Origin: Mesorhizobium sp. B2-1-8
GTDB taxonomy: Bacteria; Pseudomonadota; Alphaproteobacteria; Rhizobiales; Rhizobiaceae
Direction: 5' to 3'
Length of the DNA stretch: 64,000 nucleotides
Assembly (NCBI RefSeq): GCF_006442545.2
Contig: NZ_CP083952.1
Location: 3,573,501-3,637,500, forward strand
Each line of letters starts with the position of its first letter. Position 1 is the first letter of the stretch. The notes under the pieces are model-generated. The model had not been told where the DNA came from, ran no database searches, and saw only the letters and a program-made list of their open reading frames with translations. A program made the translations under genes and the position numbers. Positions 44,179-46,699 of this stretch are shown here, piece by piece.

Positions 44179-45588
44179 CTACTCCGCTGCCTCGGCCCGC
44201 GCGGGCAGCCCCAACCATTGCCGGCAATCGGCCCGTGCGCGCGACGTGATGGCATGCCTTTTGGCTATGGTCTTGTCCTTGCCGCGCAGGCGCTTGCCTT
44301 CGATCTTCTGCGCTTCGGCCGGTGGGAACAGGCCGAAATTGACATTCATCGGCTGGAAGGAACGCTTGCCGGGCTCATCGTCGGAGACGATGTGGCCGCC
44401 GGTGATGTGGTTGAGCAGGGCGCCGAACGCCGTGGTGAGCGGCGGCAGCGACGGTGCGTGGCCAAGCCGCTCGGCGGCCGCGAAGCGTCCGGCGAGCAGG
44501 CCGATCGCGGCGCTCTCGACATAGCCCTCGCAACCGGTGATCTGGCCGGCAAAGCGCAGGCCCGGCCGCGACTTCAGCTGCAGCGAGCCGTCGAGCAAGG
44601 TCGGCGAGTTGATGTAGGTGTTGCGGTGCAGGCCGCCGAGACGGGCGAAGTCGGCGTTTTCGAGGCCCGGAATGGTGCGGAAGATGCGCACCTGCTCGGC
44701 ATGCTTCAATTTGGTCTGGAAGCCGACCATGTTGTAGAGCGTGCCCAGCGCGTTGTCCTGGCGCAGCTGGACGACGGCATAGGCCTTCACCGTCGGGTTG
44801 TGCGCATTGGTCAGGCCCATCGGCTTCATCGGTCCGTAGCGCAGCGTCTCGACGCCGCGTTCGGCCATGATCTCGATCGGCAGGCAACCGTCGAAATAGG
44901 GCGTGCCTTCCCACTGCTTGAACTCCGTCTTCTGGCCGTCGACCAGGGCCTGGACGAAGGCGAAATATTGCTCCTTGTCCATCGGACAGTTGATGTAGTC
45001 CTTGCCGGTGCCGCCAGGCCCGACCTTGTCGTAGCGCGACTGGAACCAGCAGGTGTCCATGTCGATCGTGTCGAAATGGATGATCGGCGCAATGGCATCG
45101 AAGAAGGCCAGCGCGTCGGCGCCGGTCGCCTCGGCGATCGATTGGGCAAGGGAGGGCGCGGTCAATGGCCCGGTGGCGATGATCGCCTGATCCCACCCCG
45201 CCGGTGGCAGGCCGGGAACTTCCTCGCGCTCGATGGTGATCAGCGGATGTGCTTCAAGCTTTTTCGTCACCGCATCGGAAAAACCGTCGCGGTCGACGGC
45301 CAGCGCGCCGCCGGCCGGCACCTGGTTGGCGTCGCCGGCGCTCATGATCAGCGAGCCGGCCAGCCGCATTTCGGCATGCAGCAGGCCGACGGCGTTGTTT
45401 TCGGCGTCGTCGGAGCGGAAGGAATTGGAACAGACGAGTTCGGCCAGGCCATCGGTCTTGTGGGCGTCGGTGCCGCGAACCGGGCGCATTTCATGCAGGA
45501 TGACGGGCACGCCGGCCTCGGCGGCCTGCCATGCCGCTTCGGAACCGGCGAGCCCGCCGCCGATGATATGGATGGGATTTTTGCTCAT
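44179..45588 (-). CDS. trmFO: Methylenetetrahydrofolate-tRNA-(uracil-5-)-methyltransferase
   Basis: 469 residues. TrmFO makes ribothymidine at position 54 of tRNA using methylene-THF and FADH2. The FAD-binding N-terminus is [20 protein letters not shown], then [20 protein letters not shown]; catalytic cysteine regions such as [14 protein letters not shown] and the C-terminal [20 protein letters not shown] are present. The start at 45588 is taken where the FAD motif begins. It is downstream of the small RNA array, with the array's terminator in between. Confidence 0.96.
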
Positions 45589-45665: not shown

Positions 45666-45791
45666 GAAAACAACAACACCCGCCGGGGGAGGAGGTCCGG
45701 CGGGTGTCGTTTTGGGGGTCGACCCTCGGGAGGAGGTGAAGGCCGACCATATTCGTCATCGCCGGGGAGGAGGTCGGCTCAGACGAAATTC
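45666..45791 (-). ncRNA. Anti-Shine-Dalgarno small RNA module 3 (cuckoo/alpha-r14 type)
   Basis: Read on the minus strand: an AATTTCGTC box, then hairpin C (45775-45778 with 45761-45764), hairpin B (45738-45748 with 45717-45727) and hairpin A (45697-45707 with 45676-45686). Each loop is exactly ACCTCCTCCC. Hairpin A extends to about 15 pairs and runs into TTGTTGTTTTC, so it is also the intrinsic terminator of the whole transcript. Cuckoo/alpha-r14 RNAs pair with Shine-Dalgarno regions of many mRNAs. Confidence 0.85.
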
Positions 45792-45847
45792 TTTTCGCAT
45801 CTTTAAAGAGGGCGAAGCCTCTGGGGCAAAATTCGTTTTGCCCTGGG

Positions 45848-45968
45848 GAAACAACGCCCGCCGCGGGAGGAGGTGCGGCGGGCGCCGTTTGGGTGGCCAA
45901 CCCTCGGGAGGAGGTGAAGGTTGGACCTATTCGTCATTGCCGGGGAGGAGGTCGGCTTTGACGAAATC
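45848..45968 (-). ncRNA. Anti-Shine-Dalgarno small RNA module 2 (cuckoo/alpha-r14 type)
   Basis: Same plan as the neighbours: ATTTCGTC box, hairpin C (45953-45956 with 45939-45942), hairpin B (about 45895-45926, one bulged T) and hairpin A (45875-45884 with 45855-45864, 10 perfect GC-rich pairs). All three loops are ACCTCCTCCC. The stem sequences differ from module 3 with compensating changes while the loops stay fixed. A GGCAAAA/TTTTGCC hairpin in the 3' spacer may mark a processing site. Confidence 0.85.
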
Positions 45969-46008
45969 TCTTTTGCTATCTTTCAAAAGGGGCAAAACCC
46001 TTTTTGGG

Positions 46009-46128
46009 GAACAACGCCCGCCGCGGGAGGAGGTGCGGCGGGCGCCGTTTTGGTGGTCAACCCTTGGGAGGAGGTAAGGGCTAACCGTATTCGTCGAGGT
46101 CGGGGAGGAGGTCGACCCGGACGAAATT
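46009..46128 (-). ncRNA. Anti-Shine-Dalgarno small RNA module 1 (cuckoo/alpha-r14 type)
   Basis: Begins only about 8 bases after the stop of the second DUF1127 gene. Hairpin C (46113-46117 with 46098-46102), hairpin B (46076-46086 with 46055-46065, 11 pairs with two G-T wobbles) and hairpin A (46035-46044 with 46015-46024) again each hold the loop ACCTCCTCCC. A further AAAAGGG/CCCTTTT hairpin lies in the spacer to module 2. Co-transcription with the DUF1127 genes followed by processing is the likely origin. Confidence 0.85.
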
Positions 46129-46135
46129 CCGTCGT

Positions 46136-46276
46136 TTAGATCGCCTTGCGGGCGACGATCTTGATTTCGTCGCGGACGATACCGAGATCATGCAGCTGGC
46201 GGTTCGAAAGGCGACCCAGCTCGGTAACCGTCTCGCGATAAACGCGCCAGTTACGATAGTTGCGGATCAGGTTCAT
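46136..46276 (-). CDS. DUF1127 small basic protein, copy 2
   Basis: 46 residues: MNLIRNYRNWRVYRETVTEL, then GRLSNRQLHDLGIVRDEIKI and VARKAI. The YRETVxELxRLSxRxLxDLGI pattern is the DUF1127 signature. DUF1127 proteins are small, arginine-rich and linked to RNA turnover and phosphate/carbon balance; Rhodobacter CcaF1 binds RNA and affects maturation of the downstream CcsR small RNAs. The ATG at 46276 matches copy 1; an ATG at 46282 is also possible. Followed directly by small RNA module 1. Confidence 0.88.
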   Translation of the reverse strand: MNLIRNYRNWRVYRETVTELGRLSNRQLHDLGIVRDEIKIVARKAI

Positions 46277-46324: not shown

Positions 46325-46465
46325 TTAGACCGCCTTGCGAGCGACGTAAGGAATGTCGCTGCGGCTGATGCCGAGGTCGGTCAGTTCACGGTTGCTCAGG
46401 CGGCTCAGCTCGGAAACGGTGTCCCGGTAGCGGCGCCAGTTGCGGTAGTTGCGGATCAAGTTCAT
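46325..46465 (-). CDS. DUF1127 small basic protein, copy 1
   Basis: 46 residues: MNLIRNYRNWRRYRDTVSEL, SRLSNRELTDLGISRSDIPY, VARKAV. It differs from copy 2 mainly after residue 30, indicating a tandem duplication. First gene after the RpoH-like promoter, with about 50 bases of leader and a GAGAAC ribosome site. It is expected to be co-transcribed with copy 2 and the three RNA modules. Confidence 0.9.
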   Translation of the reverse strand: MNLIRNYRNWRRYRDTVSELSRLSNRELTDLGISRSDIPYVARKAV

Positions 46466-46519
46466 GGTAGTTCTCGTTTCGTCTTTCTTGCGGATCATTC
46501 CGTTTGTGTACGAACCATA

Positions 46520-46547: not shown

Positions 46548-46699
46548 CGCTATGGCTGCATGGCAGCAATGCAAATTGTGCAATGCAGCATTAACGCGGC
46601 TTCACGGACCTGACACAAAGAAGCCAGAATCAGAAAGTGCCGTGACGTCAACGGCTTGGGTGCGTCGGCTAAAATGACGACCGGGTGGGGAGAGAGGGC

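Follow-up and report, generated by a model that had tools for sequence, protein, structure and literature searches.

The minus strand between positions 45671 and 46130 of the window, by which we mean the whole 64-kb stretch of Mesorhizobium sp. B2-1-8 DNA that was analysed, carries three tandem modules of three hairpins each. Two DUF1127 genes precede these modules and are themselves preceded by a predicted promoter and a composite box; the next gene downstream, trmFO, is context outside the array. In the order of transcription the features are:

46560..46582, minus strand: composite LsrB/VtlR-like box TGCACAATTTGCATTGCTGCCAT, TGCA-N6-GCAT-N3-TG-N3-T (motifs of PMC10746234 and PMC8844928)
46519..46547, minus strand: predicted promoter CTTTTA-N17-CTATTT (read by eye and from conservation; a prediction only)
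46325..46465, minus strand: DUF1127 gene 1, 46 aa (PF06568, 63.1 bits)
46136..46276, minus strand: DUF1127 gene 2, 46 aa (PF06568, 55.9 bits)
46009..46130, minus strand: ar14 module 1 (RF02344, 91.3 bits), loops at 46103-46112, 46066-46075 and 46025-46034
45849..45969, minus strand: ar14 module 2 (RF02344, 88.1 bits), loops at 45943-45952, 45906-45915 and 45865-45874
45671..45792, minus strand: ar14 module 3 (RF02344, 87.8 bits), loops at 45765-45774, 45728-45737 and 45687-45696; its third hairpin is followed by a U-rich, terminator-like tail
44179..45588, minus strand: trmFO (NCBIfam NF003739, 675.3 bits, cut-off 262)

The first-pass annotation, made from the letters of the sequence, had placed two DUF1127 genes ahead of the array, and PF06568 indeed matches twice. 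The distance of about 8 bases it gave to the first module is close: 10 bases separate the end of the second stop codon (46136) from the first base of a stem (46125). The TrmFO protein is 92-96% identical to eight Mesorhizobium records, with the next best at 87%.

Every module is a full-length match to the Rfam family ar14 (RF02344), scoring 87.8-91.3 bits in the covariance-model search that the annotation had recommended, against a gathering score of 58.8 bits. The array is a member of the αr14/cuckoo RNA family, as had been proposed, and shows its features throughout, namely three hairpins per module, CCUCCUCCC unpaired in each loop and variable stems. The single 10-base loop claimed for nine stem-loops is borne out, since ACCUCCUCCC is identical in all nine hairpins, each closed by a stem. 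ACCTCCTCCC occurs in nine exact copies on the minus strand, with low ends at 45687, 45728, 45765, 45865, 45906, 45943, 46025, 46066 and 46103, and no further copy was found on either strand of the 64 kb; the mean expected by chance is 0.07 per window in 100 shuffles, none of which held nine. Two additional ar14 copies are present in the genome, both solitary. The loop sequence resembles the anti-Shine-Dalgarno region of 16S rRNA. A match of the loop to the 16S tail of this very genome is unsupported, as the only genomic copy of GGATCACCTCCTTT sits in a stretch outside any Rfam match. The Rfam search of the host genome returned no match to the 16S family; rRNA therefore seems absent from the assembly, which is otherwise 99.99% complete, and has probably been masked or is missing.

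Cut so as to span the outermost stem bases, each module is 116 nt long and forms three hairpins that leave the ten loop bases open (-61.5, -60.5 and -61.1 kcal/mol; z = -7.6, -7.8 and -8.1), and the whole 501-nt stretch has a folding z of -9.45. In an alignment of 66 distinct Mesorhizobium modules, out of 71 with three intact loops from 31 loci, 93.9% of the cells are paired. The compensating changes that the annotation had seen in the stems, and on whose conservation in relatives it had in part staked its reading, recur here as two-sided changes in 16 of the 38 stem pairs. The covariation score amounts to 0.230, a value reached in none of 500 shuffles and approached by no slid pairing (at most 0.086); the measure of further pair types is weaker, 32 of 500 shuffles being equally high. 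Most changes fall in hairpins 1 and 2, and hairpin 3 is almost fixed. In 39 of the 66 modules two inner pairs of hairpin 1 (columns 12 and 13) are not formed, and the hairpin has an internal loop there. Since the modules were chosen for three intact loops, the invariance of the loops in this alignment is partly a matter of selection; arrays with one altered loop do exist (L007, L010, L021 and L024).

Matches to ar14 are present in all 61 genomes of a genus sample (60 above the family cut-off) and in 116 of the 121 genomes of a family-wide sample (108 above it). Among the 30 relatives examined more closely, drawn from the top matches in a sample of 60 members of the genus, two DUF1127 genes precede the array in every case, and each array has two or three modules. 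The comparison of copy number between related genomes that had been called for gives, by CCTCC positions, three modules in 12 of the 30 and two in 18. The U-run noted after module 3 only proved to be a conserved trait of last modules: at least nine T were counted in the 14-base tail of 28 out of 31 'last' modules, and four or five in 40 out of 42 earlier ones. This count overlooked one of three modules in L007 and in L019; in L007 the missed module is the true last one and the 'last' entry is the middle module. In two-module arrays the last module is again of this kind, and the number therefore varies ahead of the terminator-like module. A generic terminator scan, limited to loops of 8 bases, returned nothing behind module 3; the loops here have 10 bases. 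Confinement of the U-rich tail to last modules fits a single precursor that would then be cut, as has been reported for the Rhodobacter CcsR RNAs (PMC8625941, PMC10253847). It could be put forward that tandem copies, and several copies per genome, betray nothing but a spreading DNA repeat devoid of any RNA function. With covariation in the stems, a U-rich tail on last modules only and a gene order shared by all 30 relatives, this reading has already been made unlikely, and we consider it hardly credible.

The locus is a member of a type already described, in which αr14/NfeR1/cuckoo anti-Shine-Dalgarno RNAs adjoin DUF1127 genes ('CIN1 locus', PMC10253847), and loci of this kind are in print (PMC3927594, PMC7143759, PMC10253847). 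In the sense in which PMC10253847 uses the term, CIN1 adjacency is given here, as both DUF1127 genes precede the array on the same strand. The closest relative of the single module is αr14/NfeR1 of Sinorhizobium meliloti (RF02344; SmelA075 of the cuckoo RNAs), which has likewise three hairpins, CCUCCUCCC loops and variable stems (PMC10746234). NfeR1, however, is a single unit with a promoter of its own, whereas three units follow two DUF1127 genes here. The layout recalls the CcaF1-CcsR1-4 locus of Rhodobacter sphaeroides, where a DUF1127 gene is followed by tandem RNAs of anti-Shine-Dalgarno type and one end terminator; that locus has four RNAs and a single DUF1127 protein of 71 aa, whereas here two proteins of 46 aa go with three modules of three hairpins each (PMC10253847). 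The first-pass annotation had also named CcsR as the class of the array. We take the Rhodobacter RNA RS0680a to correspond to CcsR. The comparison with CcsR is sound as regards the layout, with tandem small RNAs behind a DUF1127 gene (PMC10253847), and looser for the RNA itself: RS0680a is described with two stem-loops (PMC3927594), and because each module has three the array is not filed as CcsR.

At the promoter two published motifs of the LsrB/VtlR regulon overlap at 46582-46560, TGCA-N6-GCAT, which is the LsrB site within -72 to -57 of NfeR1 (PMC10746234), and GCAT-N3-TG-N3-T, the motif of AbcR1 (PMC8844928). The predicted start lies near 46512 and TGCA-N6-GCAT therefore at about -70 to -57, roughly the distance at which it precedes the start of NfeR1. 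A generic sigma-70 scan reported no promoter at the box-linked site. In all 31 arrays the composite box is found 109-120 nt upstream of the first DUF1127 start; its stretch provides the most invariant 14-base windows among the 260 bases upstream. As a further difference from NfeR1 the array lacks a second, internal box, TGCA-N6-GCAT being absent between the first DUF1127 start and the last loop in all 31 arrays. Conservation of this site suggests that a redox-sensing regulator may switch on the whole unit. The same array, with the same function, might instead owe its expression chiefly to a stress sigma factor of the RpoH type, the LsrB site being marginal or otherwise used. The Rhodobacter operon, which has an RpoHI/RpoHII promoter where the Mesorhizobium array has an LsrB-like box, offers a precedent (PMC10253847), and abcR2 of S. 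meliloti is RpoH1-driven (PMC8844928). On the other hand, the box is kept in every one of the 31 arrays and CTTTTA-N17-CTATTT is similar to the RpoD form given for NfeR1 (PMC10746234), and we regard control mainly by RpoH as unlikely.

A further counterpart is the VtlR regulon of Brucella with its three DUF1127 genes and the small RNA AbcR2, where a LysR regulator also controls DUF1127 genes and the motif CAATGCAGCCATGCA agrees with CATTGCTGCCATGCA of the present box in 13 of 15 positions (PMC12595884). The available part of that account mentions no ar14 RNAs behind the DUF1127 genes, whereas the promoter described here leads into an ar14 array.

The composite box occurs three times in the 6.87 Mb of the host genome and not at all in the backward control, and all three copies adjoin a DUF1127 or DUF1127-like gene. 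One belongs to the present operon. The second, at C1:1413490, stands 102 nt before another DUF1127 gene. The third, at C1:4374282-4374304 (L152), is about 64-86 bp from a 54-aa open reading frame and oriented opposite to it; this frame reaches 21.3 bits for DUF1127, just below the cut-off of 23.3. Other species were surveyed on one strand of the best 80 of 588 trmFO loci, named records that were chosen regardless of the array and are mutually related. DUF1127-type genes were picked there by sequence pattern, and leading genes with fewer than 420 bases upstream were skipped; with the proviso that some of the 59 remaining (e.g. L131, L142) may be false members, 50 have the box within two mismatches, as compared to 1 of 236 control windows, and nine have it with three or more mismatches. 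Of the 31 composite boxes in the same 80 loci, 26 precede a DUF1127-type gene by 100-145 nt; reversed sequence had none. Eight composite boxes of this survey lie 85-91 nt before an anti-Shine-Dalgarno loop, which is the arrangement of NfeR1. Both the RNA-type and the DUF1127-type box are found in Sinorhizobium glycinis and Ensifer adhaerens (L090, L106), and Shinella (L087) has the former exactly and the latter with one mismatch; RNA and DUF1127 gene therefore look like separate units in these organisms. A reading in one orientation had recorded a DUF1127 gene in 14 of 30 genus loci and 8 of 30 family loci, the genus figure being superseded by the count over 31 arrays. Neither solitary ar14 copy of the host genome has an exact composite box on its own strand, which counts against a simple rule of LsrB control for every copy. 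The matches listed for other genomes include boxes at further places, and some of these genomes have matches in the backward-read control.

A candidate for the regulator is encoded in the host genome, where a 298-aa LysR protein (HTH_1 and LysR_substrate domains) lies between a thioredoxin reductase gene, trxB (TIGR01292, above cut-off), and a match to ar15. A GCAT-N3-TG-N3-T site is located 61 nt before the ar15 match. The order trxB-lysR-ar15 is of the type reported for the VtlR/abcR2 neighbourhood in Brucella (PMC12595884), and by neighbourhood only the LysR gene is a candidate LsrB/VtlR orthologue. Among the NCBIfam matches listed the protein exceeded no model's cut-off, and NCBIfam names no LsrB.

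In S. meliloti LsrB binds and activates NfeR1 via TGCA-N6-GCAT, and the NfeR1 loops serve as redundant seeds for repression of ntrB and of transporter mRNAs (PMC10746234); NfeR1 has been contrasted in this respect with the Hfq-binding AbcR RNAs (PMC10746234, PMC8844928). By analogy the array should act like NfeR1 at a higher dose. The earlier proposal of a strong multi-target translational regulator or sponge, made as one transcript and processed into three RNAs of about 120 nt, is plausible. Searches of the host genome for the 9-base loop complement before ATG gave 11 rows at eight sites (one in the backward control); seven of these sites are copies of one repeated element and the eighth belongs to an ABC-transporter ATPase gene. 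With 8 bases 37 uncurated rows were obtained, against five in the control, and specific target sites could not be singled out by either search. The scarcity of perfect 9-base complements and the nine identical loops in one stretch would suit an array that chiefly titrates ribosome-binding sites, 30S subunits or a protein, as a decoy or sponge, or that stabilises the DUF1127 mRNA from its 3'UTR, rather than one that supplies specific repressors. The fact that single ar14 units stand alone in the host genome and in relatives argues against such a role, as does the action of the NfeR1 loops on specific mRNAs (PMC10746234), and we have considerable doubts that it is the main one.

The repeated element deserves mention in its own right. 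GGGAGGAGGCCAGCATG, a perfect complement of the loop, stands just before ATG in seven near-identical copies on C1 of the host assembly G000 (sites L161, L162, L163, L165, L166, L167 and L168), which are possibly an insertion sequence.

We therefore favour, as the probable explanation, an LsrB-activated operon of the CIN1 type, with its linked DUF1127 genes, the transcript of which is processed into αr14/cuckoo RNAs that repress translation. An LsrB/VtlR-type LysR regulator would bind at 46560-46582 and activate one promoter, from which RNA polymerase would read through both DUF1127 genes and the three ar14 modules, stopping after the last module, the sole one with a U-rich tail. Endonuclease cuts, which in the Rhodobacter counterpart involve RNase E and the DUF1127 protein CcaF1, would then release three RNAs of about 120 nt, and the three open loops of each could base-pair to purine-rich ribosome-binding sites, thereby preventing translation in the manner of NfeR1. 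This explanation is supported by the RF02344 matches, the nine identical loops, the covariation and the paired DUF1127 genes in 30 of 30 relatives. It draws further support from a box that is present in 31 of 31 arrays without an internal TGCA-N6-GCAT and is specific to DUF1127 genes and ar14 units, from the trxB-lysR-ar15 order, from the U-tails of last modules and from the data on LsrB and NfeR1 (PMC10746234). Counting against it are the solitary copies lacking the exact box on their own strand, the boxes elsewhere in other genomes and the behaviour of ar14 in S. meliloti, where northern blots reportedly detected only one of six copies reliably (PMC7143759) and copies can therefore be silent.

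What is new here, and testable, is the link that the composite LsrB/VtlR box makes between DUF1127 and ar14 promoters. Control of NfeR1 and AbcR1 by LsrB in rhizobia and of DUF1127 genes by VtlR in Brucella meet in one promoter, and among the papers listed by a joint search of open-licence PMC text none named LsrB or VtlR together with DUF1127 and cuckoo RNA, NfeR1 or CcsR. If LsrB drives the operon, the oxidative state would set the amount of the DUF1127 pair together with a multi-loop repressor of translation, and the unexplained association of DUF1127 and cuckoo RNAs would become open to a direct test. A wider view, to which we give an even chance, is that DUF1127 genes and cuckoo/ar14 RNAs of the Rhizobiales form one LsrB/VtlR regulon keyed by the 23-bp composite box, laid out as separate box-bearing units in Sinorhizobium-type genomes and as one operon in Mesorhizobium. 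A single promoter under a redox-sensing regulator would there yield two DUF1127 proteins and six or nine anti-Shine-Dalgarno loops, and the dose would depend on modules being gained or lost in front of the last one, which bears the terminator.

DUF1127 genes together with anti-Shine-Dalgarno loops recur upstream of trmFO in Mesorhizobium, Aminobacter, Phyllobacterium, Sinorhizobium, Rhizobium, Shinella, Oricola and Aurantimonas, and this region may therefore be an old home of the locus. In two Aurantimonas records (L119, 1606-2294; L132, 1968-2382) exact loop cores follow a DUF1127 gene seven and eight times, respectively, those of L119 being spaced at steps of about 137 bases, which suggests arrays longer than the ones in Mesorhizobium.
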